From: an uncultured Bacteriovorax sp. | GTDB taxonomy: Bacteria > Bdellovibrionota > Bacteriovoracia > Bacteriovoracales > Bacteriovoracaceae | DNA: 43,905 nucleotides | Assembly: GCA_946481315.1 (NCBI GenBank) | Contig: CAMLMH010000014.1 | Span: forward strand, 1-43,905 | Direction of reading: 5' to 3' | In this document: in pieces, positions 3,710 through 30,959 of the stretch | Numbering within the stretch: the stretch's first letter is position 1 | How the letters are laid out: each line of letters starts with the position of its first letter | Translations under genes and position numbers: made by a program | Notes under the pieces: model-generated | Databases searched by the model: none | Told to the model about the DNA's origin: nothing | Seen by the model: the letters and a program-made list of their open reading frames with translations, nothing else

Positions 3710-3714
3710 CTTTT

Positions 3715-4431: not shown

Positions 4432-4435
4432 TGAA

Positions 4436-4945
4436 ATGCTGCCAGTAGTGGTTTATATTTTCGTTGCGATCCAATTGCTGGTTGTAGCTTACATCGACTT
4501 TAAGACTAAAAAAATTTCTAACGTCTGGTTGCTTATCAACAGTATATTTTTTGTTGTGCTTACCTGGCTCTTTCCTGAGCTTTACAGCTGGTCAATTCAG
4601 GTACTTTTCATCCCTGTAGCCTTTATCGTCGTAGGATTTGTATTGTTTTTGATGAATATCATGGGAGGGGGAGATTCCAAGTATCTTTCCTCCATTTATC
4701 TTTTGATTCCTGTTTCTCTTCAGGAAACCACTTTTATCTATTTATTATATGCAACCATTTTAGTAGGAAGTACGCTCTTTTTGCTCAACACTTTAAAGTA
4801 CCTTGATTTAATCATTGTTCATTATAGAATGAAGGATATTGCCGGTATAAAGCGCATTTACGGTAAACGATTTACCTATGCACCAGTTATCTTTATCGCA
4901 TGGATGTGGTTCGGATGGCAGAACTCAAAAATTCTGACTTTCTAA
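4436..4945 (+). CDS. cpaA: Tad prepilin peptidase TadV/CpaA (A24 aspartic protease)
   Basis: Inner-membrane aspartic protease that trims the leaders of the Flp and TadE-like pilins in this operon. The 169-residue, multi-pass protein carries both catalytic aspartates: the first in YIDFKTKKISN and the second in the GxGD motif MGGGDSKYLSS. It lacks the N-terminal methyltransferase domain of PilD, as expected for the short Tad peptidases. The ATG at 4436 is supported by AGGAG seven bases upstream, inside the end of the preceding pilin gene, so translation is probably coupled. The 3' end overlaps the next pilin-like gene. Confidence 0.93.
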   Translation: MLPVVVYIFVAIQLLVVAYIDFKTKKISNVWLLINSIFFVVLTWLFPELYSWSIQVLFIPVAFIVVGFVLFLMNIMGGGDSKYLSSIYLLIPVSLQETTFIYLLYATILVGSTLFLLNTLKYLDLIIVHYRMKDIAGIKRIYGKRFTYAPVIFIAWMWFGWQNSKILTF

Positions 4946-5244
4946 ATTCAAAAGGACAAAGTTTAGTTGAATATATTCTGCTTTTAGCGGTTATATCTTC
5001 AATTGGCTTTGCTCTGTTTAACAGTCAAAAGTTCAAAAACTTTTTTGGCGGAACAGGATTTTTTGAAACTTTCCGTCATGGAATTGAATACTCTTATCGT
5101 TATGGCCGGGAAATGAAAGGACCGGAAGACCATGAAAGAGGTATGGATTTTTCTTATGGTAGCCGTGCACATGATACATATTGGAACAACTCCAAAGGAC
5201 AGTCTCGTTTTTTCACCGGTACAGAAGATTATGGATCAAGATGA
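4915..5244 (+). CDS. Pilin-like Tad pseudopilin
   Basis: A protein of 109 residues with a prepilin processing site G|QSLVEYILLLAVISSIG (E+5, Y+6) and a single N-terminal hydrophobic stem, followed by a strongly polar, aromatic and Tyr/Gly/His-rich tail (GIEYSYRYGREMKGPEDHE). It is longer than Flp and lacks a second hydrophobic region, so it is best seen as a minor pilin or pseudopilin of the Tad system. The start is uncertain: ATG 4915 is given, and ATG 4900 in the same frame is also possible; both lie within the end of the peptidase gene. Its own stop overlaps the next start (ATGA), so it is in the same operon. Confidence 0.78.
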   Translation: MAELKNSDFLNSKGQSLVEYILLLAVISSIGFALFNSQKFKNFFGGTGFFETFRHGIEYSYRYGREMKGPEDHERGMDFSYGSRAHDTYWNNSKGQSRFFTGTEDYGSR

Positions 5245-5765
5245 AGATTCGAAATAATAATCGTGGTCAATCTACTATTGAATTTATTCTGACTTTTACC
5301 ATTGCCGTTGGTTTCATATTTCTCTTTCTGAAAATGGCCCTGAATTACACAAACGGTTTCATGGTTCACTATGCAACTTACAATGCAGCAAGGGCTTATC
5401 TGGTCAATGATGATCTTCATCAATCAGACGCGCACAATGATAATCAAGCTGAAGTTTTTGCCAAAAAAGTTTTTAAAAAATATATGCCGGAAGCATTGAT
5501 GCCTGGAATTGAAGTTACTATAAAAGCTCAGGGGGCTGGTGGAGGAGTTTTGCCGCTTTTCACTGGAATGTACGCTGAATTTTCTCAAAAATTTTCATTG
5601 GGATTAATCGGAGGTAAGGAGTCAATCAATTTAAGATCCGAAGCTTTCCTGGGCAGAGAGCCTACCCGAACAGAAAGTACAGCCCTGACTTGTGAAGCGA
5701 TTAAATCCGGATTGGGCCTTACCTCCTGTAGTGTGCATGCCACACTGGATGATAATGGGGGATAA
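5241..5765 (+). CDS. tadE: TadE-like pseudopilin
   Basis: TadE/TadF-type pseudopilin of 174 residues. After the basic leader MKIRNNNR comes G|QSTIEFILTFTIAVGFIFLF, with glutamate at +5 and phenylalanine at +6, then a region typical of TadE proteins (NGFMVHYATYNAARAYLV) in which paired aromatics and alanines precede a periplasmic domain. The start at 5241 overlaps the stop of the preceding gene (ATGA), the usual sign of coupled translation. A Gly-rich turn (GAGGGVLP) splits the periplasmic part, and two cysteines near the C terminus may form a disulfide. Expected to be cut by the TadV peptidase and to help start or anchor the pilus. Confidence 0.85.
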   Translation: MKIRNNNRGQSTIEFILTFTIAVGFIFLFLKMALNYTNGFMVHYATYNAARAYLVNDDLHQSDAHNDNQAEVFAKKVFKKYMPEALMPGIEVTIKAQGAGGGVLPLFTGMYAEFSQKFSLGLIGGKESINLRSEAFLGREPTRTESTALTCEAIKSGLGLTSCSVHATLDDNGG

Positions 5766-6296
5766 ATGAAAAAAATCTTATCCAATCAGAAAGGTCAGGC
5801 AATATTTGAAATGATACTTTTCCTGCCTTTTCTCGTTTTTCTTTTTACAATTTATTATACAGTCGGCAACTCCATAAGTGGTTCCATCAATCAACAAAAA
5901 GCCGTTCGGGGCTATTTCTATGCGCTGGTCAGGAACAACTCGTATGTTAACAGCGGCACCGATATAAAAGAATTCGTCACCAGAAATGGAATGAAAAGGA
6001 TCGGCTTCAACGCCATTGGATGGCGAGAAGACTCTAAAGGTGGCGGAGACAATCAGCAGGCAATCGCTCCTTGTTTCAAGTTTTCATCAGTCTTAAAGGG
6101 TGACAGTTCAGAGACTTGTGAAGGAAAAGAAAGAGGTGAGTCTGACATGGGGCCAGTCAGCAGCTATATCCGACTTTTTACTTTCTATGGCGTTTGCGGT
6201 CCAGTCTATACTGTATCCACAACCGGCGGAGCACCAGAAATTGGTCCCTCCAATCAAAACAGTCCGGCTAATTGCTCTCTCAGCCGCAACAACTGA
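5766..6296 (+). CDS. Second TadE/TadF-like pseudopilin
   Basis: A 176-residue protein starting directly after the preceding stop. The leader MKKILSNQK is followed by G|QAIFEMILFLPFLVFLFTIY, with glutamate at +5 but methionine where tyrosine or phenylalanine is usual. The next part (INQQKAVRGYFYALVRNNSY) resembles the membrane-proximal region of TadE proteins. The periplasmic part has cysteines (APCFKFSS, SETCEGK, GVCGP, ANCSLSR) that could form two disulfides. It ends the pilin block of the operon; an 81-base gap follows before cpaB, in which I see no gene and no convincing terminator. Confidence 0.8.
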   Translation: MKKILSNQKGQAIFEMILFLPFLVFLFTIYYTVGNSISGSINQQKAVRGYFYALVRNNSYVNSGTDIKEFVTRNGMKRIGFNAIGWREDSKGGGDNQQAIAPCFKFSSVLKGDSSETCEGKERGESDMGPVSSYIRLFTFYGVCGPVYTVSTTGGAPEIGPSNQNSPANCSLSRNN

Positions 6297-6377
6297 TAAG
6301 CACTTTCTTCCTACATATTAAAAAACAGCCATCTGTTGTTAAAATAAAAACAGCTAGTTATTTAACAGGTGGAATAG

Positions 6378-7205
6378 ATGAACACACGCGCACTCACCCT
6401 GGCCCTCTTCATTGCAGGTTTTGCCATGTTTATGGTCTACACATATATCGAAGATCAAAAAACTGCTTTGATTAAAGAGTATGGTGTTCAAAGTTCTGTT
6501 GTCGTTGCAAAGGTTGATATTCAGGAACTCGATTTGATTGATGATTCAAAGGTAGAAGTGCGTACTGTTCCCAATAATTTTTTATCTCCGGGACACTTCA
6601 AATCTGTAAAAGAACTGGAAAACACAATTGCCACTGTTCCTATTATTAAAGGTGAACAAATAACTAAACCGCGGGTTACTTATCCTGGTATTAAAACAGG
6701 TTTATCGCGCCAGGTTTCTGTTGGTAAGAGAGCTGTTGCAATTAGTATTACAGAGAAAGATGCCGTCGGTCGATTGATCAAACCAGGTGATCGGGTTGAT
6801 GTTCTGGCCTCTATTGATATTTCCCAGGGCGCACGTAGAGACTTACAAAAAACACGAACAGTTTTACAGGATGTACTGGTTCTTTCGACGGGGATGAGTA
6901 TGACTAACTCTATTCCTATCTATGGAGTTGAAACACCAAAAGTAATCCGGACAATGAACCTGAACACATATACTAGCTACAATACTATTACTCTTGAACT
7001 GGATCCTTATGATGTTCAAAAGCTGGCCTTCATTCAGATTTACGGAAACGGAGGAATTTCTCTGGCGCTGAGAAATAACTCAGATAAAGAACCAGTTCGT
7101 TTAAGAGCAACACAAATTTACGACGTCTTGGGTGAAGATGCTTCTGAAGCAAAAGCTTTCTTCTCTGAGAAATACCTGAAAGAGAACAAAAATGCTCCTC
7201 AATAA
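6378..7205 (+). CDS. cpaB: Flp pilus assembly protein CpaB/RcpC
   Basis: Periplasmic, membrane-anchored Tad assembly protein that works with the secretin. The 275-residue protein has one N-terminal membrane segment (ALTLALFIAGFAMFMVYTYI), then a SAF-like domain with VVVAKVDIQELDLI and the conserved PIIKGEQITKPRVTYPG stretch, then the RcpC domain: KRAVAISITEKDAVGRLIKP, GDRVDVLASIDI and the ITLELDPYDVQKLAFIQ region. Length and order match CpaB. AGGTGG precedes the ATG at 6378. The last 14 bases overlap the secretin gene, so the two are coupled. Confidence 0.95.
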   Translation: MNTRALTLALFIAGFAMFMVYTYIEDQKTALIKEYGVQSSVVVAKVDIQELDLIDDSKVEVRTVPNNFLSPGHFKSVKELENTIATVPIIKGEQITKPRVTYPGIKTGLSRQVSVGKRAVAISITEKDAVGRLIKPGDRVDVLASIDISQGARRDLQKTRTVLQDVLVLSTGMSMTNSIPIYGVETPKVIRTMNLNTYTSYNTITLELDPYDVQKLAFIQIYGNGGISLALRNNSDKEPVRLRATQIYDVLGEDASEAKAFFSEKYLKENKNAPQ

Positions 7206-8691
7206 ATTGCTGCTGCTTCTATTTACATTTTTGACCATCAATCTTGGTTTCGCTCAGGAAGAAGCTGAGCCGTCTCCAGATTCATTAAAAGAAGTTGAAA
7301 TTATTGTTGGTCTCGAAAAGATTATCAAACTGGATTTTGTTCCCAACAGCATTGTTAAAATAGCCAACGAGTCACTGGTCAGCTATCAGTTGGTTCCGCA
7401 AAAAAGAGAAATTCTGCTGACCGGATTAAAGGCCGGTGATACTACTCTTACTTTGCGGGATACTGCGGGAGATATTAAAGCGAGATATTTATTAAAAGTT
7501 ACAGCTTCAGATCAGTCACGGGTCGTTGTCCAGTTAAAGGAGCTCTTAAGCGACGTTGAAGGACTGGAAATTGGTATTAAGGGGGACGCTGTTTACGTCG
7601 GGGGACAAATTGTCGTTCCTGCTGATATTGGAAAGGTTGTCGTTATCCTAGATAAATATCCTGAAGTTTTGAGACTAGTTGAACTATCACCACAAACTCA
7701 GATCGTAATCGCCAGAAAGATGCAGGAAGAAATGCATAAGAGCAATTTGAAGGACACAACCGTTCGGGTCGTCAACGGAAGTTTCTGGATTGAAGGAGTT
7801 GTTAACTCCAAGGACGAGAGCGATAAAGCAGAACAAATTGTCCGCGCATATTTGCCGGACATGATCCAGAACCTGGCACGAAGAACAGATGCTGTTCAGT
7901 CCACAAAAAAACCTTTGTTTGAAAATCTCTTAACGATCAATTTAAAGCCTAAGCCAGAACCATTGCCAAAGCTGTTCAAACTAACAGCTCAGTTTGTGGA
8001 ACTAACGAAATCCTATGACCGAGAATTTGGTTTCAGCTGGACACCGACAATCGGCGCCGGCGGAGGCTCAATCCAGGTAGGAAAAAGCGGAAGCGGTGGA
8101 GTAACGACTAGTTCAGAAGGAACTCTTGCTGCAACTATTTCTAATTTATTTCCCAAGCTAAACTCTGCCAAAAATGCAGGTCATGCGCGGGTTATCCAGT
8201 CTGGCGTGGTCGTCGTAAAAGAAAACATAGAAGGAATTATTACAAAGACGACAACCATTCCTTATGCGTTGGGGACGGGAGAGAATCTGAAGACGGGAGC
8301 AGCTAAGGCAGGCTTCAGTATGAACATAACACCAACCATGTTGCAGGAAGAGCGGATTAACTTAAAAATGACAGTTAAAGTGCAGGCGACATCAGCAGAT
8401 GATCCGCCGATTGAGCTGGACAATACAATCACGACACAAATCGTTGTTAAATCTCAGGAGTCTGCCGTAATTGGTGGAGTTGTATCCAGCAGGACATCAA
8501 CAGACTTTGATAAAAATCCCCCTGTGCAGGAAACGATTGAAAACGGTTCAGCCTTATTCTCATTTCTTAAGTCGAAGAAGTATTCATCCAACCGAACTCA
8601 GTTTGTTATTTTTGTGACCCCGGAAGTGATTGAATCAGCTTCTACCGGAACAAGTGAAATTGAACGCAAGTTCAGAAAAAGGAGCCGCTAG
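7192..8691 (+). CDS. cpaC: Tad outer-membrane secretin CpaC/RcpA
   Basis: Outer-membrane channel for the Flp pilus. The 499-residue precursor has a signal peptide (MLLNKLLLLLFTFLTINLGFA), an N-terminal pilus-specific domain (about 30-110: VEIIVGLEKIIKLDFVPNS and GLKAGDTTLTLRDTAG), a BON-like segment near 190-230 (VNGSFWIEGVVNSKDESDKA), and the C-terminal secretin domain with the EFGFSWTP strand, the glycine-rich gate region near 285-305, and the final GGVVSSR and FLKSKKYSSNRTQFVIFVTP signatures. No lipoprotein box is visible. Its stop codon shares a base with the GTG start of the ATPase gene. Confidence 0.95.
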   Translation: MLLNKLLLLLFTFLTINLGFAQEEAEPSPDSLKEVEIIVGLEKIIKLDFVPNSIVKIANESLVSYQLVPQKREILLTGLKAGDTTLTLRDTAGDIKARYLLKVTASDQSRVVVQLKELLSDVEGLEIGIKGDAVYVGGQIVVPADIGKVVVILDKYPEVLRLVELSPQTQIVIARKMQEEMHKSNLKDTTVRVVNGSFWIEGVVNSKDESDKAEQIVRAYLPDMIQNLARRTDAVQSTKKPLFENLLTINLKPKPEPLPKLFKLTAQFVELTKSYDREFGFSWTPTIGAGGGSIQVGKSGSGGVTTSSEGTLAATISNLFPKLNSAKNAGHARVIQSGVVVVKENIEGIITKTTTIPYALGTGENLKTGAAKAGFSMNITPTMLQEERINLKMTVKVQATSADDPPIELDNTITTQIVVKSQESAVIGGVVSSRTSTDFDKNPPVQETIENGSALFSFLKSKKYSSNRTQFVIFVTPEVIESASTGTSEIERKFRKRSR

Positions 8692-10943
8692 TGGCAGGAC
8701 ACATCATTTCAATCATCGGTGGAAAGGGTGGTCTTGGTAAATCGCAAGTCGCCGCAAATCTCGCATTTGCTTATGCCATTGAAGGAAAAGTAAAAACTTT
8801 ACTTCTCGATTTTGACCAGAAGGCCAGTGGTGATCAGGACTTCATCACGGGTATGAAGGGCAAGAAGAATATTCGGGAGCTGGCCGATTTTAAAGGTTCA
8901 ATCGATCCCAATTCCATTCAGCAGTTTGTTAACATGAATCAGAACGTGTTCTATATCGGAATGCCAAATGATCCGGTTGCCGCCAATGGAATTGAAGTTG
9001 AAGCTCTGGGGAAAACATTAAAAGCAGTCACGAATATTTATCCAATTACGATAATTGATGCCGGTAATGAGTTAACTCCGCTGGCTATTAAAGCTCTGGA
9101 ATTTTCAACACTCATTTTCGTAGTTGTTACTCCGGACATCCTGGCCCTCAATCAGACCAAGAAGTTGTATTCTGATCTGGTAACGATGATGTTTCCCAAA
9201 GACATGATTCAGTTTGTGGTTAATCAGGCCCAACAGGGTCATCCGGTTACCAGCGATGTTATCGCTAAAACATTAGGCAAGCCGGTATTTAGCATTATTC
9301 CGCGCGACGATCAGAACTGTACTCTGGCCTTGAATCAGAAAAAACCCGTGATGCTAATTGCCCGCACCAGTCCTTTTGCTAAAGGAGTAACGGACACAGT
9401 TCGCAAGCTCAATGAAAAGAGTATCCTGAGAGCACTGGAAAAACTTAACAAGCCTTCTGATGTCGGAGCAAAAAAGCCGGAAGAAGGTAAAGACGGTGCA
9501 CCGGCAAAAGGCGGAAAGAGCGCGTGGACGGATCTTAAATCCCGAATTCATCGTGCACTTGTTGAAGAAATGGATTTGAAGAAAGCGGATGACAATGATC
9601 CGAAAGCTCAGATTATCTTAAAAGAACAAACCAAAAAGGTTGTCGTTGATTTACTTGGCAAAGAAGACACAAAAGGAATTTTAAACTCACGGGAAGACAT
9701 GAATCAGATCGTGAAGGAAATTCTGGATGAAGCCCTCGGTTTAGGGCCACTAGAAGACTTATTGAGAGACAAAACCATTTCCGAAGTCATGGTCGTTGGA
9801 CCTTATAAAATTTATTACGAGCAGGGCGGAAAACTGCGTTTGTCGGATGTTACGTTTACAAACGATCGTCAGGTTTTAAATGTTATCGAAAGAATTGTAG
9901 CTCCAATCGGACGACGGATTGATGAGAAGACTCCTTACGTTGATGCACGCCTTCGTGACGGATCACGTGTTCACGCGATTATTCCTCCCTCATCAATTGA
10001 TGGATGTACGATTACCATTCGTAAATTTCCCGAGAAACGTCTGACTTATAAAGATCTGGTTAAGTACGGGTCGATGACAGAAAATATGGCAGACTTTCTG
10101 CGAATTGCTGTTGAGGCACACAGAAATATTATTGTTTCAGGTGGTACGGGTTCTGGTAAGACAACACTGATAAATGTTTTGGGTGGATTTATTCAGTCCA
10201 ACGAACGAATCATCACCTGTGAAGACTCTGCGGAGTTGAACTTTCCTCAAGAGCATATTGTCCGTCTTGAAACACGTCCTCCTTCTCTGGAAGGTGATGG
10301 TGCTATTGATATTCGATGTCTGGTAAAACAAACATTGAGAATGCGTCCTGATCGAATCGTCGTTGGAGAGTGTCGTGGTGGTGAAACATTGGATATGCTA
10401 CAAGCGATGGGTACGGGGCACGATGGATCAATGACGACAGTTCACTCCAATAATCCGCGTGAATGTATTGGTCGTCTGGAAACTCTCGTTCAGTATGCCG
10501 GCACAGCACTCTCTCCAAGAGCAATTAAAGAAATGATAGCAAGCGCAGTTCACATGATTATCCAGCAGTCTCGTCTGGATGATGGCTCCAGAAGAGTTAT
10601 GTATATTACTGAGATCGGCGGTATTCAGGGCGATACGGTTATTTTGCAGGATATTTTTCTTTTCATTCAAAAAGAAATTGATAAGAACGGAAAAATTATC
10701 GGAGAGTTTCAAGCAACAGGTTTCATTCCAAAATTTATCGAAGTACTTGAGCGAAAGGGCTATAACGTTCCTCGCGGAATATTCAGCAATCGACCACCAC
10801 CTGCAGCACCGGTAACTCCGGCAGCTGCTCCGGCAACCCCTTCAGCTGCATCGAGTGGAGTTGCGGCAGCGAAACCAGCAACCACAGGTGGCCAGGCTTC
10901 TAACCCAGCAGCAGCCGGAGCAAAACCTCCGGTGAAAAAATAG
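8691..10943 (+). CDS. cpaF: Fused CpaE/TadZ-like ATPase and CpaF/TadA secretion ATPase
   Basis: One 750-residue polypeptide carries what are normally two Tad proteins. Residues 1-250 are a MinD/ParA-type ATPase (CpaE/TadZ, which places the machine): deviant Walker A GGKGGLGKS (10-18), LLLDFDQKASGDQ (37-49) and IIDAGNE. After a charged linker (about 255-275) residues 280-690 are the type II/IV secretion hexamer ATPase CpaF/TadA that powers pilus assembly: Walker A GGTGSGKTT (484-492), the Walker B region RPDRIVVGECRGGE (552-565) and the His-box GTGHDGSMTTVHSNNP. The end (about 702-750) is a Pro/Ala-rich tail. GTG at 8691 is supported by AAGGAG six bases upstream. No frameshift is needed to join the halves. 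A CpaE receiver-like domain is absent. Confidence 0.93.
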   Translation: MAGHIISIIGGKGGLGKSQVAANLAFAYAIEGKVKTLLLDFDQKASGDQDFITGMKGKKNIRELADFKGSIDPNSIQQFVNMNQNVFYIGMPNDPVAANGIEVEALGKTLKAVTNIYPITIIDAGNELTPLAIKALEFSTLIFVVVTPDILALNQTKKLYSDLVTMMFPKDMIQFVVNQAQQGHPVTSDVIAKTLGKPVFSIIPRDDQNCTLALNQKKPVMLIARTSPFAKGVTDTVRKLNEKSILRALEKLNKPSDVGAKKPEEGKDGAPAKGGKSAWTDLKSRIHRALVEEMDLKKADDNDPKAQIILKEQTKKVVVDLLGKEDTKGILNSREDMNQIVKEILDEALGLGPLEDLLRDKTISEVMVVGPYKIYYEQGGKLRLSDVTFTNDRQVLNVIERIVAPIGRRIDEKTPYVDARLRDGSRVHAIIPPSSIDGCTITIRKFPEKRLTYKDLVKYGSMTENMADFLRIAVEAHRNIIVSGGTGSGKTTLINVLGGFIQSNERIITCEDSAELNFPQEHIVRLETRPPSLEGDGAIDIRCLVKQTLRMRPDRIVVGECRGGETLDMLQAMGTGHDGSMTTVHSNNPRECIGRLETLVQYAGTALSPRAIKEMIASAVHMIIQQSRLDDGSRRVMYITEIGGIQGDTVILQDIFLFIQKEIDKNGKIIGEFQATGFIPKFIEVLERKGYNVPRGIFSNRPPPAAPVTPAAAPATPSAASSGVAAAKPATTGGQASNPAAAGAKPPVKK

Positions 10944-10950
10944 GAGGGGC

Positions 10951-11841
10951 ATGAATTTTTTCGTCGCACTTCTTGGAAAAGGTGGACTGATTTTTGTCGT
11001 CGGGCTGATGATTTTCTTACTCAGTTACCGCTATTCAATCAACATTTTTGAATGGGTTGAACAAAAAACATATGGAACACGCACATATATCAGTGAGAAA
11101 CTTGAGTTCCTGTTTATTGAAATTCCCCAGGATAAGTTAACTATCTATCTGCTCATCTCGTCCGTTGGTGTGGGTGCATTTTTTTTCCTCTTGTTTAGCT
11201 TGTTTGGAAAATGGATTTTAGGAATTATTATTGGTGGTATTTTTAGTTTTATTGGGTTTAAAGCGCCAAGGATTCTGGTTGATTTTCTGGTGGAAAAACG
11301 TATTAAGGCTTACTCGCATCAGATGGTCGATGCCCTTCAGTTATTGTCTAACGGTATACGTGCTGGCTTATCTGTTCCGCAGGCAATTGGTATGATTGTT
11401 GATGAAATGCCGGCACCTATCAGCCAGGAGTTTAATATCATTCTTCAGCAAAACAGGATTGGTGTCCCTTTGGAGGAATGCTTTGAGAATCTTGCGAAAA
11501 GAGTGCCGTTAGAAGATAACGACATGTTCGTCTCGAGTGTCAATATTTTGCGCGAAACTGGTGGTAATCTTGCCGAAGTTTTTGACACTATCGTGGACGT
11601 AATCAGAGAGCGGGTAAGACTGCAACAAAAAGTTGACACTTATACTGCTCAAGGGATGTTTCAGGGAATGACCATCGGGGCGATGCCATACCTCTTAGGT
11701 TTCATCTACTTCATTCAGGATCCGAACTCCATGAAACCCCTTTTTACAACTCCATTGGGGTTAGTCATGCTGTTTATTGCCCTGGCCTTCGATTTAGCAG
11801 GTATTTACGTTATAATGAAAATTGTAAAAATTAAAATTTAA
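10951..11841 (+). CDS. tadB: Tad inner-membrane platform protein TadB
   Basis: Polytopic GspF-type protein that couples the ATPase to pilin extrusion. The 296-residue protein has two N-terminal membrane segments (residues 10-25 and 65-100), the cytoplasmic T2SSF domain with MVDALQLLSNGIRAGLSVPQ, GVPLEECFENLAKRVP and ILRETGGNLAEVFDTI, and two C-terminal membrane segments. AGGAGGGG lies just before the ATG, 7 bases after the ATPase stop. Tad loci usually have a second GspF-like gene (tadC) next to this one; none follows here, as the next gene is a YD-repeat protein. Confidence 0.94.
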   Translation: MNFFVALLGKGGLIFVVGLMIFLLSYRYSINIFEWVEQKTYGTRTYISEKLEFLFIEIPQDKLTIYLLISSVGVGAFFFLLFSLFGKWILGIIIGGIFSFIGFKAPRILVDFLVEKRIKAYSHQMVDALQLLSNGIRAGLSVPQAIGMIVDEMPAPISQEFNIILQQNRIGVPLEECFENLAKRVPLEDNDMFVSSVNILRETGGNLAEVFDTIVDVIRERVRLQQKVDTYTAQGMFQGMTIGAMPYLLGFIYFIQDPNSMKPLFTTPLGLVMLFIALAFDLAGIYVIMKIVKIKI

Positions 11842-21653: not shown

Positions 21654-23939
21654 ATGATGAAAACTCTTGATAGCCTCAATCCTGTTCAAAAACAGGCAGT
21701 GCTCAATACTGACGGTCCGGTAATGATTCTCGCAGGTGCTGGGTCGGGAAAAACAAAAACACTGGTCACCCGTATTACTTATCTTTTGACAGAAAAGAAT
21801 ACGAGTCCACATCAGTTGCTGGCGCTTACTTTTTCCAACAAAGCAGCACGTGAGATGCGGGAGCGAATTGCTGGAGAAGTTTCATTTGATGTTGGTTCAT
21901 TGCAAATTACAACGTTTCACGCTTTCTGTGCCCGTTTATTGAGATCTGAGGCTAACTATCTGGGCTTATCCCGTAATTTCACTATTTATGACGAAGGCGA
22001 ATCTAAGGCGATTGCAAAATCTCTGTTGGAGCGCCGGGGAATTTCTACAAAAGAAATCAATCCATACGATATTTTGAACTATATCGATGGATTAAAAAAT
22101 AATGGTTACTATCCGGGAAGAGAAATGACAGATGGGGGCGGCGCAGACCCTCAGGATGAATATTTTACCTATTTTGAAGAATATGAATCTGAACTTCATC
22201 GGGCTAACGCAGTCGATTTCGGTGGTCTTATTACAGCTGTGATTCAGCTTTTTGAAAAATTCCCAGAAGTAGCCACTCGTTATCAGGAGCGTTTTAGATA
22301 TGTACTGGTAGATGAGTATCAGGATACAAACCGTGCTCAGTTTGAACTTATCCGCATTCTTTGTGGAAAACGCCGGAATATATGTGTTGTTGGTGATGAA
22401 GACCAATCTATCTATTCCTGGCGAGGAGCCGACATCCGAAACATTCTTGATTTCGAAAAAGTTTTCCCTGATGTAAACGTCCTTAAACTTGAGCAGAATT
22501 ACCGTTCCAGTAAAACAATCATTGAAGCCGCTTCTTGTGTCATCGAAAAAAATACGATGAGAAAAGGAAAGCATATGTGGACTGATAATCCCGAGGGTGA
22601 TGCTATCGAGATTATTGAATGCTTCAATGACAAAGACGAAGCAGAGTTTATAGCGCAGGAGTCGTCTAAACTGCATCGGGATCAGGGCGTATCCTACAAA
22701 GACATGGCCGTTTTCTATCGTTCCAATGCTCAAGCTCGTTTGATAGAAGATGCTCTTCGTAAATATAAAATTAACTATCGGGTTATTGGCGGAGTTAAAT
22801 TTTACGAACGAAAAGAAATCAAAGACATGCTTTCTTATCTTCGGTTGATAATTAATTCCAAAGACTCACTTGCCTTAAGTCGCATTATCAATGTGCCCGC
22901 CAGAGGAGTAGGAGCTACTTCATTAAGAAAACTGGAGATTGAAGCGATTAACAACAATACTTCCCTCTGGGATATAATTGAAAAAATTGTTGATAATCAG
23001 GAAAGTTTTTCTCATATAAAGTTGTCGGCTAAAATCAAATCATCTCTTTCTGAATTTGTGACTTTGATAAATGAACTGCGCCATCTCGATGAAAACAAAG
23101 TTAAGCCTTCAATCATTTACGAGAAGGCCCTCCACGAATCTGGCTATTCCGCTTTTTTAAAAGCTAACAAAGACTATGAAACACTCGCAAGATTAGAAAA
23201 TCTTGATGAATTACTTAATGCTATTACGCAATATGAAGAGGGAATAGAAACTCCAACGCTGACTGGTTTTCTGGAAACTATTACATTAGATACAAGTTCG
23301 GAATTTGATGAAGAAGCTATTCCAAACAACGGCGAAATATCTTTGATGACTGTTCACGGAGCCAAGGGGCTTGAGTTTACCCACGCTTTTGTAGTTGGCG
23401 CCGAAGAGAATGTGTTTCCAAGTTATCGCAGTGTAGACAGCGGTGAAATTGCCATGGAAGAAGAGAGGCGTCTTTTTTATGTTGCCATGACTCGTGCCAT
23501 GAAGAAACTTTATATTTCATTCGCACAAGGACGTATGTTATTCGGACAAATAAAATTTAATGGTCCAAGCCGCTTTGTGGATGAAATTCCGGAAAAACTA
23601 TACACCTGGAGGAAACTGGCCAATGCTTCAGGTTTTCACGATAAATATGGTGGTAGTTCATCCAGTGGTTATGCAAGTAATTATGGGTTCAAAGAATATG
23701 ATCCATATGATCAGAGTCAAGAATCACATTATGATGATGAGCCAGTAGTTTATCAGGTTAAGGAAAGCTTTCATAAGCCTAAATTTCCGAAAGGTTCCAA
23801 GGTTGTCCATTCTCTTTATGGAGCAGGAAAGGTAGAAGACTCTGAAGGCTCAGGAGCTGATGAAAAAGTTCTTATTAAATTTGCTGATGGCAACCGGAAA
23901 AAGTTTATGGTGAAATTTGCACCCATTACGCTGGCCTGA
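21654..23939 (+). CDS. pcrA: UvrD/PcrA-type superfamily 1 DNA helicase
   Basis: 3'-5' DNA helicase for repair and for clearing replication forks. The 761-residue protein has all SF1A motifs in order: Q motif SLNPVQKQAV, Walker A AGAGSGKTKT (27-36), motif Ia TFSNKAAREM, Walker B VDEYQDTNRAQ, motif III GDEDQSIYSWRGAD, motif IV LEQNYRSS, motif V LMTVHGAKGLEF and motif VI YVAMTRAMKKL. After about residue 675 a Ser/Tyr/Asp-rich linker leads to a small C-terminal domain (GSKVVHSLYGAGKVED), as in PcrA, which contacts RNA polymerase. The start is 21654 or 21657. The last 14 bases overlap the convergent glycosyltransferase gene. Confidence 0.94.
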   Translation: MMKTLDSLNPVQKQAVLNTDGPVMILAGAGSGKTKTLVTRITYLLTEKNTSPHQLLALTFSNKAAREMRERIAGEVSFDVGSLQITTFHAFCARLLRSEANYLGLSRNFTIYDEGESKAIAKSLLERRGISTKEINPYDILNYIDGLKNNGYYPGREMTDGGGADPQDEYFTYFEEYESELHRANAVDFGGLITAVIQLFEKFPEVATRYQERFRYVLVDEYQDTNRAQFELIRILCGKRRNICVVGDEDQSIYSWRGADIRNILDFEKVFPDVNVLKLEQNYRSSKTIIEAASCVIEKNTMRKGKHMWTDNPEGDAIEIIECFNDKDEAEFIAQESSKLHRDQGVSYKDMAVFYRSNAQARLIEDALRKYKINYRVIGGVKFYERKEIKDMLSYLRLIINSKDSLALSRIINVPARGVGATSLRKLEIEAINNNTSLWDIIEKIVDNQESFSHIKLSAKIKSSLSEFVTLINELRHLDENKVKPSIIYEKALHESGYSAFLKANKDYETLARLENLDELLNAITQYEEGIETPTLTGFLETITLDTSSEFDEEAIPNNGEISLMTVHGAKGLEFTHAFVVGAEENVFPSYRSVDSGEIAMEEERRLFYVAMTRAMKKLYISFAQGRMLFGQIKFNGPSRFVDEIPEKLYTWRKLANASGFHDKYGGSSSSGYASNYGFKEYDPYDQSQESHYDDEPVVYQVKESFHKPKFPKGSKVVHSLYGAGKVEDSEGSGADEKVLIKFADGNRKKFMVKFAPITLA

Positions 23940-25257
23940 TAGTTTCTCTGCGCGCCCATTCGATAACATTTTTTTGAGCAGGTAACGTATCTGTATCGAT
24001 CGGTAAAGCGGCAAGTTTTTGCAGGTCCTCCTGATAATCAATATCAAAAGTCTGAGGTAGAAAATAGAAATTATCGGCTCCCAGTTTGTTTATTAATTCC
24101 TGTGCCGTTGATTCGCAACTATAATTAATTCCCGTCCAAAAATCCTGATCCCGAGCAGTCGAGCTGCCATAAAGGTAAAAACCACCATCATCCGTTTTGC
24201 CCAGGACATGTTTAGCTGCCGGAGCATTGAAGGCTATCCATAGTTTATCAGCACTTATGTGAGGAGAGTCTGCGCCAATGAAATAGAAGTTTTCATGATG
24301 TGACTTTAACTGTTCCTGAATAGAAAATAAGCGTTCACCCAGATTGCCATTTCCCTGAGTCAGACTGGGAAGCCCACTCCAGTAATCACTTTCGCTGGCA
24401 TTTGGTTCACTTATTGCCCAATAGGCAATAACTTTACCCTCTGATTTTTTTATTAACTGAAGAACAACTTCTTCGATTGCAAGCAGAGATAATTTAAAAA
24501 ATTCTTCAGCTTTTTCTTTCCCGATTTTTTCTGCCAGTCTGGTTTTGATTGCTGAATAACCGGGAGTTTTCACAAAAATAGCAATCGCATATTTATGATT
24601 CTTATTGGCAGGGTTTAGCTTTTTGAGAAATTCCGGGTAAGCCTGAAGATATGTGAGCATTAAGTGTCTGCAGGTCGTCTTAGTCCAACCCGACTGCAGA
24701 TATTTTCGTGCGCTGGTCGTTAATGTTTTATCCACCGGCATAACGGCAATTTTTCTCTGATGAGCTCTCCAGACAAGTAAATGATCTTCGCCGTACTTAG
24801 CTTTTTCATCAAAAAAACCCAGCAAAATGAAAGTTTTTTTACTCATGAAAAATGCCTGATCACCAAAAGGCATTTTCAGATAGCGACTGCGTAGATTGGC
24901 AAAAATAGTATTGATTCGCATCAGCCCCTGACAATCAAAGGCGAGATCAAAATGATAAAAAGCGTGAGGATTATTTTTAAGCTTAGTTATAACCAGATTT
25001 AAATGTTCCGGAGTAAACAGTGAATCAGCATGCAAAAACAGAAGATGCTTTCCGGATGATTTTAAAACGCCGGCATTTTGTTTGGATGCCCTATTGCCCT
25101 GGCAGTATACATATTTGACTGCCCCATCATGAGACTGAAAATCCGGACCGACAAGTAAGATTTCAATATCAACTTGTAATGGAATCCTTGTTAGTAAGTC
25201 TTTCCATTTTGTGTCTCCGGTCTTTACCGGGACAATGATACTGAGAAATGGCTTCAC
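23926..25257 (-). CDS. Two-domain glycosyltransferase: rSAM/selenodomain-associated transferase 2 fused to transferase 1
   Basis: A 443-residue fusion of two enzymes usually found near ArsS-type radical SAM proteins. Residues 1 to about 215 are a GT2-fold transferase (LSIIVPVKTGD, CQGNRASKQNAGV, LLFLHADSLF with a DxD-like site, and MPFGDQAFF). Residues from about 220 to 430 are the second family (AIAIFVKTPGYSAIKTRLA, GNGNLGERL, FIGADSPHIS, GKTDDGGFYLYG). The GTG start at 25257 directly follows the TAA of the radical SAM gene, so translation is coupled. The presumed role is adding and modifying the sugar part of an arsenosugar-like product. The last 14 bases overlap the convergent helicase gene. 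Confidence 0.88.
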   Translation of the reverse strand: MKPFLSIIVPVKTGDTKWKDLLTRIPLQVDIEILLVGPDFQSHDGAVKYVYCQGNRASKQNAGVLKSSGKHLLFLHADSLFTPEHLNLVITKLKNNPHAFYHFDLAFDCQGLMRINTIFANLRSRYLKMPFGDQAFFMSKKTFILLGFFDEKAKYGEDHLLVWRAHQRKIAVMPVDKTLTTSARKYLQSGWTKTTCRHLMLTYLQAYPEFLKKLNPANKNHKYAIAIFVKTPGYSAIKTRLAEKIGKEKAEEFFKLSLLAIEEVVLQLIKKSEGKVIAYWAISEPNASESDYWSGLPSLTQGNGNLGERLFSIQEQLKSHHENFYFIGADSPHISADKLWIAFNAPAAKHVLGKTDDGGFYLYGSSTARDQDFWTGINYSCESTAQELINKLGADNFYFLPQTFDIDYQEDLQKLAALPIDTDTLPAQKNVIEWARRETIRPA

Positions 25258-26232
25258 TTAAATATCTACCTTCAAAGCACCACCACAGGAACTTCCAGCA
25301 CCCGCAGTGCACCCATAACAATGATTTGCCAGCGCTATTGCTTTATTTTTTAGCTCATCAATATGGCTTATGTCCCACAAATTTGTCTTGTTATAGCCGA
25401 GCGGGATTTCCAGCATCTGATTAAAGTCGCAATCGTAAATAACGCCATTCCAGCCGATCGATACCAGGCTCTTGCACATAACGGATTTTGCTGCTTCGGC
25501 GTTAAAGTTATTAAGTAACAATTCCATGTATTGTTCAAATTTACCCTGGCGCTCAAGATCATCTAGAAACCGCTTGATTGGCATATTAGTGATAGTAAAA
25601 AGGTGATTAAATTCTATACTAAATAGATCTTTCAGCTCTCTTTTGTAATCAGACTCCAGTTTGGCCTGATTGCCGGGTAGAAAAGCTCCACCAGGATTAT
25701 AAACGAGATCGAGAATTAGACCGGAACCTTCTTTTCCATATCCCAGAAAATTCAAGCGCTCCAGAGCATTAATACTTTTCTCAAAAACACCTCTGCCTCT
25801 TTGTTTGTCCACGTTGTCTTTGGTGTAACAAGGTAGCGATGCTACGACGTGCACTTTGTTTTCGGCCAGAAAAGTAGGAATCCATTCATATCCCGGCTCG
25901 AAAAAAATAGTCAGATTACAGCGATCAATCACTTCTATATTTAAACTGCGTGCAGCTTTCACCAGTTTCCTAAAATGCGGATTCATCTCTGGAGCTCCGC
26001 CGGTCAGATCGATAGTTTTAATAGTACCTTTGGCCTTGGCAATCAGATCAATAATCCGGTTAACAGTCTCTTCTTCCATTATTTCTCTGCGGGATGGGCC
26101 AGCCTCAACATGACAGTGATTACATGCCTGATTGCATAGCTTGCCGAGATTAATTTGTAATGTATTAACCGACTCCCGCTTAAGCTCGATATGAGCGTTC
26201 TTTAAAGTTGTAGCAAAAGGAACCATTGGCAT
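25258..26232 (-). CDS. arsS: Radical SAM/Cys-rich protein of the arsenosugar-biosynthesis ArsS type
   Basis: Radical S-adenosylmethionine enzyme of 324 residues. The CxxxCxxC cluster motif is C33, C37 and C40 (LCNQACNHCHVEAG), followed by the SAM-binding TGGAPEMNP region. The C-terminal DUF3641-type domain ends in CYGCTAGAGSSCGG (C305, C308, C316), the motif that in many relatives starts with selenocysteine; here it is cysteine, encoded normally. In the best-studied family member the enzyme joins 5'-deoxyadenosine to dimethylarsenic as an early arsenosugar step, but the family is broad. It lies between a metallophosphoesterase gene (11 bases upstream) and the fused glycosyltransferase (0 bases downstream). 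No arsM is in the window, so the arsenic link is inferred from family alone. GAGG precedes ATG 26232. Confidence 0.88.
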   Translation of the reverse strand: MPMVPFATTLKNAHIELKRESVNTLQINLGKLCNQACNHCHVEAGPSRREIMEEETVNRIIDLIAKAKGTIKTIDLTGGAPEMNPHFRKLVKAARSLNIEVIDRCNLTIFFEPGYEWIPTFLAENKVHVVASLPCYTKDNVDKQRGRGVFEKSINALERLNFLGYGKEGSGLILDLVYNPGGAFLPGNQAKLESDYKRELKDLFSIEFNHLFTITNMPIKRFLDDLERQGKFEQYMELLLNNFNAEAAKSVMCKSLVSIGWNGVIYDCDFNQMLEIPLGYNKTNLWDISHIDELKNKAIALANHCYGCTAGAGSSCGGALKVDI

Positions 26233-26243
26233 ATAAACCTCAA

Positions 26244-27416
26244 TTAGATAACAAAATTCAATTCAGTAATTTCTGAATCAACCATAAAACGATTGGGTGG
26301 TCCCCAAAAGCCTGTCCCGGAATTTACATACAATAGCATTCCATCCACATCATGCAGACCTTTAACATAAGGTTGTACAAGATGAACAATCATATTCCAG
26401 GGGAAACCCTGTCCACCATGAGTGTGACCGGATAGCTGCAGATTATACTTTAAGCGTGAAGCTTCAAAGCATGTTTTTGGTTGATGTGACAACAAAATCG
26501 AATACGCGTCTGCAGGAATTCCTGCGCAAGCCTTTAAAGGATCACAAGCATTTTCAGGGTCGAGTTTGCGACTGGAAATGTCGCTGATTCCAGCTAAATA
26601 AAAGTCCGTCCCTTTAAAATTTAGTCTGACGTGAGAGTTATTTAAAACCTGCATTCCCAAAGATTTTGCATAGTCCGTCCACTCGCGAGAATACCAGTAA
26701 AATTCATGATTTCCGGTCACAAAATAAGTTCCATAAGTCGATTGAAAATTTTTAAAAGGAAGTAAGTCTTTTCCTATATCCGTGACCCTACCATCGATCA
26801 TGTCTCCGGTGATGACAATTACATCTGGCTTCATGGCATTGACCCGGTCGACAAGTAGTTGAGCAAATTCCGATTTAAGCGAAGGGCCAATATGAATATC
26901 AGAGAGCTGTACGATTTTCAGGTTATTCAATCCGGCATGCATATTCTTTAACTTAATATCAATTGACTTTTTCTTGGGATCAAAGGAATTAGCGAAGCCG
27001 ATTCCCGTGGCCAGAGTGCTTCCGGCTATAGTTGCAAACGTAAGATTTTTTTTCAAAAAATCACGACGATTGTTATTGGTGATCAATTCTTGTTTGTGTG
27101 AGAACTTATTGCGGATCCAGTGGATTAAATCGTTCAGATCCAATAGCAATAACATTAAAACACAAAGACCCATGAAACCCATGGCGACATAGCTTGCTGT
27201 TACCAGTATTGGTATAAACGGTCCAGGTCCAAAATAATTTTCAAAGCGCAGAATAAATCTGGTGAAGACACTGAAGAAAGTCAGAATGTCGAAAAATAAA
27301 ATAGCCTTGGGCTGAAAAGCGAACACGTCTATAACATGTTTTTTGAAGCTGCGCCGGAAATGAATCCAGAACAGAATTGAGATGATTCCGGAAACAATGG
27401 TAGGTATGATTGTCAT
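26244..27416 (-). CDS. Membrane-anchored calcineurin-like metallophosphoesterase
   Basis: A 390-residue YaeI/YkuE-like phosphoesterase. The N-terminal 110 residues hold about three to four membrane helices, then a twin-arginine-like motif RRDFLKKN at about 117-124 followed by a hydrophobic stretch (TFATIAGSTLATGIGFA). The catalytic domain has the five metal-site blocks: QLSDIHIGP, ITGDMIDG, VTGNHEFYW, LLSHQPKT and LSGHTHGGQ. These residues are complete, so it should be active, facing the periplasm if the second hydrophobic region crosses the membrane. It is the first gene of the operon with the ArsS-like enzyme. Whether it acts on that pathway or on cell-envelope lipid phosphates is unknown. 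Confidence 0.9.
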   Translation of the reverse strand: MTIIPTIVSGIISILFWIHFRRSFKKHVIDVFAFQPKAILFFDILTFFSVFTRFILRFENYFGPGPFIPILVTASYVAMGFMGLCVLMLLLLDLNDLIHWIRNKFSHKQELITNNNRRDFLKKNLTFATIAGSTLATGIGFANSFDPKKKSIDIKLKNMHAGLNNLKIVQLSDIHIGPSLKSEFAQLLVDRVNAMKPDVIVITGDMIDGRVTDIGKDLLPFKNFQSTYGTYFVTGNHEFYWYSREWTDYAKSLGMQVLNNSHVRLNFKGTDFYLAGISDISSRKLDPENACDPLKACAGIPADAYSILLSHQPKTCFEASRLKYNLQLSGHTHGGQGFPWNMIVHLVQPYVKGLHDVDGMLLYVNSGTGFWGPPNRFMVDSEITELNFVI

Positions 27417-27464
27417 TTTATTATTATAATGAATAAATCAGCAGAGTGAATTAAAATTACAATT

Positions 27465-28490
27465 GTGGAAAACCAAACAAAATATCCTGTCATAATCATC
27501 GGTGCCGGACCGGCGGGGCTTGCTTTAGGACGGGCCCTTCAGGCGGAAGGCATTGAGTTTCTGATCATAGAAAAGGGTGAGATCGCAGGAAACAGCTGGG
27601 CAAATATGCCGGATCACCTGCGTCTGATATCACTGTGGCATTCCAATTGCCTTATTAAGGAAGATATCAGCAAGTTTTCCCGCTGGAAAAATCTTTCGGC
27701 CTGGGAATTTAGTCAATACCTGAGTGAATTCGCCAGCCGCTTTAACTTGCCGGTAAAGTTACAAACAAAAATGTTAGCGGTTGAAAAGACAGATAGTGAC
27801 TGGCTTATTTCTACTGATAAAGGTGAATTAAGCTCCTCGATTGTTGTTGATTGCCGCGGTTATTTCAGTTTTCCTTATGTACCACAGCTCCCCGGCGATA
27901 ATAGTCTGAAACCGGTGCATTTTAACGACTTCAAAAATGCTCAGCAATTTTCCGGACAACAGAAAATTTGCATTGTAGGAAAAAGGCTATCTGCCGGTCA
28001 AGTCATTCAGGAACTTTGTGAAGCAAACCCTGATATAAAAATTTATCTCCTGGCCCGATCTAAAGTGCATTTTAGTCCCCCAATGTTTATTCTTACTTAT
28101 CTTTTAAAATACCTGTCAGTACTTGAATGGCTGCCTCTTAGGATGGGGATAAAGAAGACAGTAGATATACCAATGCATGCCTCAATTAAAAAATACTTTT
28201 TGAGTAACGTTATACTGAAAAAAGAAATACAGAATATTTCAGGAAACAAGATCACCTTCGAAGACGAAACAGTGGCCATTGATTCACTAATTATGGCTAC
28301 AGGCTATAAAAGAGAATTAATACAATTAAGGAATGATTTCGAGTCGAAGCAGAATGACAACTATTTTTTTCTGGGTATTAATGGTCAGCGAACTTTCACC
28401 AGTCGTTTCTTGCGCGGAATCAGGGAAGATGCTCCTGTCCTGGCGAAATTGATTCGTGGCAGACTCGCATCCAGAAACAACTGCCAGTAA
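27465..28490 (+). CDS. FAD-dependent, NAD(P)-binding oxidoreductase (flavin monooxygenase-like)
   Basis: A 341-residue flavoprotein. The N-terminal FAD-binding site is VIIIGAGPAGLALGRALQ, then GNSWANMPDHLRL, the segment after the dinucleotide fold shared with flavin monooxygenases and the YpdA group. The second Rossmann motif is CIVGKRLSAGQV, where the usual GxGxSG glycine pattern is broken, and the ATG motif is LIMATGYKRE. The start is GTG at 27465 with no good Shine-Dalgarno sequence, 48 bases from the divergent metallophosphoesterase gene, so the two units share a regulatory gap. Its 3' end overlaps the convergent flippase-like gene by 106 bases. Substrate unknown; a role with the ArsS operon is possible. 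Confidence 0.8.
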   Translation: MENQTKYPVIIIGAGPAGLALGRALQAEGIEFLIIEKGEIAGNSWANMPDHLRLISLWHSNCLIKEDISKFSRWKNLSAWEFSQYLSEFASRFNLPVKLQTKMLAVEKTDSDWLISTDKGELSSSIVVDCRGYFSFPYVPQLPGDNSLKPVHFNDFKNAQQFSGQQKICIVGKRLSAGQVIQELCEANPDIKIYLLARSKVHFSPPMFILTYLLKYLSVLEWLPLRMGIKKTVDIPMHASIKKYFLSNVILKKEIQNISGNKITFEDETVAIDSLIMATGYKRELIQLRNDFESKQNDNYFFLGINGQRTFTSRFLRGIREDAPVLAKLIRGRLASRNNCQ

Positions 28491-29374
28491 AAATAAAATC
28501 CAACCGGAAAAAGAAAAAGCATTAAGATGGCCCGGTCAATCAAACTGGCAAGAAGGGCGATTTCGAAATCAATTCCGAACTGTTTACCGATATAAGCAGT
28601 GATGATTTCTTTAACTCCAATATTCCCCGGCATAACCTGAAACAAAGAAGCTGCGAGTAGGATTAAACTGATCTCGAAACTATCAGTAAAATTCAAATTC
28701 ACACCGATGGCCTTAAATGAGAGATAAACCTTAACCGGATAAAGAATAAACATACCAATCCAGCAAAGTGTCGCCATCGTACTTAGTTTGAAATCCATCA
28801 GATAAGTTTTAGGGGTATACTTACGTTTAAAGTTGAACAATTTCCCCAGGGCTTCAGTCGCAAATATTAGAATGATACCTGAAACCGACAACGCTACAAA
28901 AATAGATTCCAGAATGGTGAAGACCGGATGTTGTTTCTGTAAGAAAAACAGACAATAAAGTGTTCCGGCAATGCCCAGAAAAGTAAAACCGGTTAAGACG
29001 ATCGCAAAACTCATAGAGAGGAACTCCCTCATTGAGAGGCCCTTCTTGTCTTTGATATAAAGCATACGTATGCCTGTCCCGCCCTTTGCAGGAAGGAGCA
29101 TGTTAAACAGTTCTGAAGCCATACACAGGCCATACCATTCTTTAAACTTCAGGATGATGTTGTGCTTTTTAAGCGGCATTTTGTGGGTTAAGCCAAGCAG
29201 GTAGTAATTAAGGGCATGAATCATCACTAATAAAAGAATAAAGTGCAGTTGAATAGATTTTAATTTTTCAAAGGTTTCTTCATTTTTATGGACATAAAAT
29301 CCCAGGCCTGCCAGCAAGGCAAATGATAGCAGTAACAGTACCCGGTGATATATTTTTTTGCTGGATTCACTCAC
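28385..29374 (-). CDS. Flippase-like / LPG-synthase transmembrane-domain protein (UPF0104 type)
   Basis: Polytopic inner-membrane protein of 329 residues with about eight hydrophobic segments. It carries the two sequence landmarks of this family: LLPAKGGTGIRMLYIKDKKG near residue 95 and QVMPGNIGVKEIITAYIGKQ near residue 245. It contains only the membrane domain, without the lysyl-transferase domain of MprF. Relatives are thought to move or display lipids or lipid-linked sugars. The GTG start overlaps the preceding stop (GTGA), so it is translationally coupled to the gene before it. The final 35 codons, a basic tail, lie antisense to the flavin enzyme gene. Confidence 0.83.
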   Translation of the reverse strand: MSESSKKIYHRVLLLLSFALLAGLGFYVHKNEETFEKLKSIQLHFILLLVMIHALNYYLLGLTHKMPLKKHNIILKFKEWYGLCMASELFNMLLPAKGGTGIRMLYIKDKKGLSMREFLSMSFAIVLTGFTFLGIAGTLYCLFFLQKQHPVFTILESIFVALSVSGIILIFATEALGKLFNFKRKYTPKTYLMDFKLSTMATLCWIGMFILYPVKVYLSFKAIGVNLNFTDSFEISLILLAASLFQVMPGNIGVKEIITAYIGKQFGIDFEIALLASLIDRAILMLFLFPVGFYFYWQLFLDASLPRINFARTGASSLIPRKKRLVKVR

Positions 29375-30000
29375 ACTGAACGTCCCACCAAAATTTCTGG
29401 TTTAAATATTTTGAGAAAGTAATAATGAATTTTGCTGAGCCAGAACACCCAGGAATATTTGCTTTCAATAACGTCTATGTCAGCAAATATCATTTGCGGA
29501 GTCTTCGTTCTTGTCGAATAGACTTCATAGTTAATTTTTTCCCCTCTTCGGTCATATAAACCTTTCTCCCATAGGGTTTTAAGAAACGTTTTTGGTGTTA
29601 CTCTTCCTACAGTCGTTCCGGGAACACTTAGCCCAAGACCTAGTGTAAGAACCTGTACCAATCCGGCATGACAGGATGGGGTTCTTTTATTTTTCATGGC
29701 AATTAAAAACTCACGAAAGGCAGCAAGCTCTTCCTTGGGAATTCCGGTAAAGCGGAAAAAAAGTGCAGCCCTAATGTTATCTTTTCGCGAAGGTTGTAAC
29801 TTGCATGGATTAATACTGAATCGGGCATGAAATTCCTGATCTTGGCAAATAACAAAGCAATGATAATTTGTTGGAGATAAGCCGATAATTAAATCATCTT
29901 CCAAATTTATTCTGTTACCAAAATACCAGATGCCATCATTACTGCCATCAGGCTTAGTTACTTCATGAGCAACATTGATGTAGGTTAATAAAGTCGTCAT
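29371..30000 (-). CDS. Unknown protein in a three-gene coupled operon
   Basis: A 209-residue protein I cannot assign. No signal peptide is evident. Visible features are an N-terminal beta-rich part (DDLIIGLSPTNYHCFVICQD), a basic middle (INPCKLQPSRKDNIRAALFF), and a segment with possible catalytic-type residues, KRTPSCHAGLVQVLTLGLGL, where a Ser-Cys-His sits before a helix; the C terminus is aromatic and basic (SKIHYYFLKIFKP), perhaps membrane associated. It overlaps its neighbours by four bases at each end, so the three proteins are made together and probably act together. The coupling and normal codon use support it as a real gene. Confidence 0.7.
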   Translation of the reverse strand: MTTLLTYINVAHEVTKPDGSNDGIWYFGNRINLEDDLIIGLSPTNYHCFVICQDQEFHARFSINPCKLQPSRKDNIRAALFFRFTGIPKEELAAFREFLIAMKNKRTPSCHAGLVQVLTLGLGLSVPGTTVGRVTPKTFLKTLWEKGLYDRRGEKINYEVYSTRTKTPQMIFADIDVIESKYSWVFWLSKIHYYFLKIFKPEILVGRSV

Positions 30001-30959
30001 CCAATGCTTACCTTGGTCAAAATTCTTTCAATTAAGCGATCTATAATGTTTGGAAGATTGGCAGGATCAAATTTATAACCTTTCGATAATTTTCTAAGAT
30101 CAACAAAAAACATATTTCCCTTGGCGCCACGGGCAATAACTCTTTCGTTGGTAAAATTTGCCAGAAGTTTTTCCTCTTTAAGGACATGTGCTCGTTCACC
30201 CACATAAACAGTATTGAGGAAATATTTTTTAGTTATTGGTTTTCGGCAAAGTGTTTTTCTGCCTTCTTCTGTATAGATCTTATATGTATCATCCATCCAG
30301 TAACCGGTGATTGTATTTACCGATGGATAAGGAGCTGGATTTCCCCAGCCAATTCTCTTTTTATTGCCGTTGCAGTTTGAAAACCATGGAAAAATGGTGC
30401 GAAGAAAACATACGAATTCCAGAAACTCCATTCTGTCATAATTCTTGTTGCGGAAAACTGTGACCGGCTCGCGTCCTTCTTCACTTACAAACTTTTTAAA
30501 AGATTGCTGGAATTCTTTATTACTGAAGTGAGAAATAGCGTCTTTAAAATCATTAAAAATGAGAAATCCACCATTGTAGTGAACACAGCCATGAATATAA
30601 TTTATGGCCGGTGGCATACGGCCTGGCTTACCTTCCGGAAATTCAGCACTGGAAGCTGAAACTAAAACCATCTTTCGCATGTAATTTCCGACTTCATTGA
30701 TGATTTCTTCGTCAGAATCAAAGCCTGCAGTTACATCACGCTTTGACTGAAAGATTATATTGGAAGTCCAGATTGTTTTACCAGTTTCCGGGTTAATCCC
30801 TGTTGCCATGGGATGATCATCGGACAGCAGACCACCTTTCATCGGATTGATCCAGACAATGTAGAAAACGTTGATGATTCCCCACGTGTTGTGGACTGTA
30901 AGACAAGTCCAGGTCCAGGCGATTTTAAGCATCTTAATCATTTCGTTTAAAAACTTCAT
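29997..30959 (-). CDS. Unknown 320-aa protein, first gene of a three-gene operon
   Basis: I do not recognise the family. An aromatic, hydrophobic N-terminal stretch (TWTCLTVHNTWGIINVFYIV, residues 17-36) may anchor it to the membrane. The rest is soluble and rich in conserved-looking Trp, Gly, His and Asn motifs such as NYIHGCVHYNGGFLIFNDF and GWGNPAPYPSVN, which look like an enzyme core, but no known active site is clear. The stop overlaps the next gene by four bases (ATGA), and the flippase-like protein completes the operon. A joint role in making or moving a membrane-linked compound is a reasonable guess only. Confidence 0.7.
   Translation of the reverse strand: MKFLNEMIKMLKIAWTWTCLTVHNTWGIINVFYIVWINPMKGGLLSDDHPMATGINPETGKTIWTSNIIFQSKRDVTAGFDSDEEIINEVGNYMRKMVLVSASSAEFPEGKPGRMPPAINYIHGCVHYNGGFLIFNDFKDAISHFSNKEFQQSFKKFVSEEGREPVTVFRNKNYDRMEFLEFVCFLRTIFPWFSNCNGNKKRIGWGNPAPYPSVNTITGYWMDDTYKIYTEEGRKTLCRKPITKKYFLNTVYVGERAHVLKEEKLLANFTNERVIARGAKGNMFFVDLRKLSKGYKFDPANLPNIIDRLIERILTKVSIG

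Follow-up and report, generated by a model that had tools for sequence, protein, structure and literature searches.

An ArsS–transferase operon without arsM in an uncultured Bacteriovorax

ArsS is a radical SAM protein whose substrate is a methylated arsenical. The arsenosugar pathway of Synechocystis PCC 6803, with its SsArsM and SsArsS proteins, was reportedly described in work by Xue in 2019 and Cheng in 2021. According to studies cited in two later papers (PMC8552651, PMC12159101), a radical SAM enzyme adenosylates arsenic during arsenosugar synthesis, and SsArsS acts together with SsArsM in the first steps of the Synechocystis pathway. As PMC8552651 describes it, the arsinothricin gene set arsQML also relies on a radical SAM enzyme and ArsM to make a C–As bond; there, ArsL moves the aminocarboxypropyl group of SAM, and the three-gene set includes no glycosyltransferase. 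Our literature search returned no paper combining arsenosugar, radical SAM, ArsS, and ArsM, and none linking arsenosugar with Bdellovibrio. Within Bdellovibrionota, several clusters (L002, L121, and L132) follow the order PiT-ArsS-ArsM-GT2-DUF2064.

The locus described here lies within a 43,905-nucleotide stretch of DNA from an uncultured Bacteriovorax sp. (contig CAMLMH010000014.1), which is referred to below as the window. Three genes run in succession on the minus strand, encoding a membrane metallophosphoesterase (MPE; 390 amino acids, 26244..27416), an ArsS-type radical SAM protein (324 amino acids, 25258..26232), and a fused transferase (443 amino acids, 23926..25257). All three were confirmed at the positions given in a preliminary description of this DNA, which had reported them as one set spanning 23926..27416. 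The locus shares a radical SAM enzyme with arsQML and, more specifically, ArsS with Synechocystis, where that protein is reported to adenosylate arsenic. It differs from the latter, as judged from published descriptions, in that no arsM was found in the window, the transferase domains are fused, and the host is Bacteriovorax-like. The enzyme families and gene order resemble those of the Bdellovibrionota clusters, but the window locus lacks PiT and ArsM, and its transferase genes are fused. It is a known kind of enzyme set, here arsM-less and with a fused transferase.

The radical SAM protein is a clear member of the ArsS family, as had been claimed, scoring 462.5 bits against TIGR04167 (cut-off of 300) and covering positions 2–303 of the 303-position profile. 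It carries a CX3CX2C motif (C33/C37/C40) and the C-terminal CxxCTAGxGSSC, with further conserved cysteines at C253, C268, C305, C308, and C316; the eight cysteines are conserved in all 98 other aligned ArsS sequences, two rows of which are gapped at the first three. A sequence search of solved structures retrieved only distant radical SAM proteins. The suggestion that such a set is unexpected in this bacterium proved too strong: ArsS exceeded the cut-off in 16 of 129 genomes of the order (taken as Bacteriovoracales), the nearest named proteins are mostly from Bacteriovorax, and public records already carry the title "arsenosugar biosynthesis radical SAM protein ArsS [Bacteriovorax sp.]". The ArsS and fused transferase genes are free of internal stops in the window and six relatives, and conserved residues are retained. 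For ArsS, dN/dS was 0.04–0.07 in the 5 of 21 pairs with computable dS, which was saturated in every pair involving the window. Constraint acts on both genes. Decayed ArsS copies were also encountered among relatives (L132:9241-10205 and L134:10030-11082): that of G011 is broken into two ORFs, and on contig C129 of G001 an intact ArsM adjoins an ArsS remnant with a stop.

The association of ArsS with two transferase families was likewise borne out, although the label "double glycosyltransferase" is only half right because a GT2 domain (residues about 1–219, TIGR04283-like) is joined to a CofC/FbiD-like nucleotidyltransferase-fold domain (residues 220–443, TIGR04282/DUF2064-like). The AlphaFold2 model of the fusion has a pLDDT of 89.7, and each half has matches in the PDB. 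Both halves fall under the curated cut-offs (134.7 of 182 bits for TIGR04283 and 105.8 of 134 bits for TIGR04282), as do arsM-linked homologs from L002 (156.2 and 125.9 bits) and G013 (148.4 and 122.3 bits). Unfused equivalents, in the order ArsS-ArsM-GT2-DUF2064, occur in L002, G005 (C46), G011, and G043. A strict linkage of the fused transferase to ArsS was rejected, as G024 has a fused transferase (40% identity) and no ArsS over the cut-off.

A search for arsM confined to the window found none among the 40 of 50 ORFs scanned, in agreement with the preliminary description. That description also proposed comparing the neighborhood across related genomes, and this comparison located arsM inside the operon in one relative and a relic of it in another. 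ArsS is followed by the fused transferase, as in the window, in 6 of the 16 ArsS genomes (G001, G008, G010, G013, G014, and G019). The locus of G013 (L120) shares ten neighbors with the window, from ClC to GlmS, and the same fusion; the difference is that G013 keeps arsM, between ArsS and the transferase, whereas the window does not. In G019, a 45-codon ORF at the same place combines the beginning and the end of ArsM, and its alignment to G013 ArsM scores 129, compared with 49 for the best of 300 shuffles. Because G013 arsM and the G019 relic occupy the same place, arsM was once part of the operon in some relatives and has been lost at least in G019. The stop of ArsS directly meets the start of the transferase gene (a 0-nucleotide junction) in the window, G001, G008, G010, and G014, and the window junction holds no arsM relic. 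Among the six relatives, ArsM is thus in the operon in one (G013), elsewhere in two, and found nowhere in three. The copies outside the operon are on C81 and C129 in G001, and in G010 the copy is short and canonical (369 bits). G008, G014, and G019 gave no match to NF008823 at E ≤ 1e-12 and none to G013 ArsM at 1e-20, counts that refer to the genome data searched, for which completeness is not given.

For the window's own line, the relatives suggest loss of arsM as the simplest history. Both the UvrD+GlmS tree (98/96) and the transferase tree (100/99) join G013 and G001 as sisters, so the clean junction of G001 arose most simply by loss. Alternatively, arsM could have been gained by an ancestor of G013 and G019. 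In the ArsS tree, a branch (100/99) places the window and the six window-type ArsS proteins on one side and 12 arsM-linked rows on the other, with 36 further rows not counted in this comparison. G001 and G013 do not group together in that tree, and the distances conflict: in ArsS, G013 is closer to G008 (dN 0.084) than to G001 (0.108), whereas in the transferase it is closer to G001 (0.059) than to G008 (0.285). Pieces of the operon may therefore have been exchanged between lines, which weakens the case for arsM loss in G001. Three further trees bear on the order of arsM gain and loss: the ArsM tree pairs G013 with G004 without support (86/73), a 9-row tree of ArsS plus transferase is poorly resolved, and in the 58-row transferase tree the rows of G001, G013, and G019 need two changes. 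An AU verdict on these three as one clade was set aside, having arisen only from an identical row left free.

In a wider survey, an ArsS locus without arsM is not unusual but common. Nine of the 16 ArsS genomes of the order have ArsM and seven (G008, G014, G019, G100, G107, G118, and G120) do not, by the searches used. We compiled 99 ArsS loci, comprising the window, 80 from a genome scan, and 18 from the order; 71 of the 99 have more than 3 kb of DNA on both sides. Within the DNA available for each locus, an ArsM-like ORF was present at 28 loci and absent from 71, a split unchanged at 140 or 60 bits, although a divergent ArsM could be missed because the profile was built from the ArsM proteins of this order. 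An NF008823 match at 1e-20 was absent from 19 of 50 other ArsS genomes, a count that leaves out 24 more loci. A PiT-type phosphate transporter was found near ArsS at 8 of the 28 arsM-linked loci and at none of the other 71 (Fisher p 2e-5, treating loci as independent), and the three candidates scanned all matched PF01384. The window operon has neither PiT nor arsM.

The survey also brought out an unnamed second radical SAM family in the order (L195-L207, e.g., L198:6542-9296), of 306–340 amino acids, four scanned members of which score 72–80 bits against TIGR04167. At 21 of the 28 ArsM places typed, out of 47, its genes are found no more than 3.5 kb from a long ArsM. Of 13 loci read, seven show a consecutive run of genes for ArsM, a DUF547-type protein, and the radical SAM enzyme, five have ArsM directly adjoining, and one lacks ArsM. 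Named members include proteins from Halobacteriovorax marinus and Bacteriovorax sp. Seq25_V, and no paper with both "arsenite methyltransferase" and "DUF547" was found in our literature search. This family could mark another pathway in which a radical SAM enzyme is linked to ArsM.

The ten genes of the window from ClC to GlmS are also found in Bacteriovorax sp. STB_52 (L001); the labels GlmS, ClC, FLIP, UvrD, and PiT are based in part on Pfam domains. Upstream of the MPE gene, a 48-bp divergent spacer (27417..27464), similar by eye in the four loci compared (window, L001, L118, and L120), leads to an FAD-dependent oxidoreductase on the plus strand (Pyr_redox_3, PF13738; 27465..28490), which at 94.2 of 425 bits is under the curated cut-off for ArsO. 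We read the locus as the meeting of three modules: the MPE, the ArsS–transferase pair, and a block of FAD, FLIP, and two proteins of 209 and 320 amino acids, a block that is present without ArsS in G047 and G057. The 3' ends of the FAD and flippase-like genes overlap by 106 nucleotides in the window (28385-28490) and in L001, L118, and L120, and by 58 nucleotides in L117. The adjacent 209- and 320-amino-acid proteins (29371-30959) have no Pfam or NCBIfam match at 1e-3, and at 1e-20 the latter has matches in 15 of the 129 genomes. Elsewhere in the window, a 750-amino-acid protein (8691-10943) with a ParA/MinD-like N-terminal part joined to a type II/IV secretion ATPase sits among Tad/Flp-pilus-like genes (4379-11841), and a 6S RNA lies on the minus strand at 3521-3710 (48.5 bits, gathering score 46.4).

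The MPE matches PF00149 and has a hydrophobic N-terminus, three TM-like stretches by hydropathy, and RRDFLK at residue 117. It falls under the curated cut-offs for LpxG and YaeI phosphoesterases (90.2 of 350 bits for NF033458 and 72.8 of 188 bits for NF008460), and a sequence search of solved structures gave no match at 1e-3. Its assignment to the set stands on weak ground. It could be a working member that dephosphorylates, at the membrane, either the product or a lipid carrier, a role we find quite improbable, albeit compatible with the pathway proposed below. Consistent with membership, MPE and ArsS are on the same strand with an 11-nucleotide gap in the window and overlap in L001, L118, L120, and L122, the spacer toward the FAD gene is alike across loci, and five of the six genomes (among 129) with a close ortholog (at least 49% identity, >370 bits) also have the ArsS–transferase pair (G001, G008, G010, G013, and G014). 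Against it, the sixth genome, G017, has the arrangement ClC-MPE-UvrD-GlmS, with no ArsS, transferase, FAD, FLIP, or either uncharacterized gene at the site and no ArsS or transferase match in the genome. In the UvrD+GlmS tree, G017 falls among genomes that carry ArsS, so it may have lost these genes yet kept MPE. The ortholog in G014 is flanked by FLIP and UvrD in an arrangement that spans two contig ends, and the ArsS–transferase pair is elsewhere, beside FAD-FLIP-209-320 and without MPE. Only an 83-amino-acid piece of MPE is left at the G019 locus. At 1e-30, MPE matches occur in 50 of 129 genomes, 41 of them without ArsS over the cut-off, although the additional matches are mostly 30–44% identical and may be paralogs. 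We regard MPE as a separable neighbor, probably co-transcribed and probably not part of the pathway.

The reading we favor, with moderate confidence, is that of an arsenosugar-type ArsS–transferase operon minus arsM, which runs on methylarsenic obtained either in trans or from the cell's surroundings. The lack of arsM would be explained most simply by its loss from the operon. In the putative chemistry, ArsS would link the 5'-deoxyadenosyl moiety of SAM to a methylated arsenical in its trivalent form, and the base would then be removed. Activation, of either the aglycone or the arseno-ribosyl phosphate, would fall to the nucleotidyltransferase-fold half of the fusion, and the GT2 half would pass the activated unit on to yield a glycosylated arsenosugar, in this presumed order. 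Methylated arsenic might come from an ArsM encoded elsewhere, as could be the case in G001 and G010, or, where the genome lacks ArsM (G008, G014, and G019), from outside the cell, such as from prey; MPE would stand outside the pathway. A more far-reaching version, which we hold only tentatively, is that a predatory lineage dropped arsenic methylation and kept ArsS and the transferases, making arsenosugar-type glycosides from methylated arsenic of prey or neighbors or from a new nucleophile.

In arsM-less genomes, ArsS and the transferase may instead have switched to inorganic arsenite, to a different metalloid, or to a nucleophile that contains no arsenic, and form a different adenosyl-derived glycoside. 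The intact pairs of G008, G014, and G019 and the ArsS genomes without an NF008823 match would fit this, yet we judge it unlikely: window ArsS differs from the 28 arsM-linked ArsS proteins at just 1 of 82 strongly conserved columns, and the deviating residue, G187, also occurs in arsM-bearing G013 and in four ArsS proteins of other groups. These columns hold no residue signature specific to arsM-less ArsS, G013 ArsS falls inside the same clade, and the arsM-less genomes are of unstated completeness. An arsenosugar cluster in decay that no longer serves any function might be read from the operon's lack of arsM and PiT, the ArsS remnant on C129 of G001, and the split ArsS of G011, but the stop-free ArsS and transferase genes of the window and six relatives, with their conserved residues, make such decay very improbable.

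The variant is moderately interesting because three relatives keep ArsS and the transferase with no ArsM found. The fusion of GT2 to a nucleotidyltransferase fold suggests a nucleotide-activated intermediate in the late steps. G013, with arsM in the operon, G019, with a relic, and G008, with none, form a natural series for asking what ArsS needs. If ArsS and the transferase work without a resident ArsM, cells that do not methylate arsenic can make arsenosugars; arsenosugar synthesis would be uncoupled from arsenic methylation, and counts of arsM genes would overlook makers of organoarsenicals.
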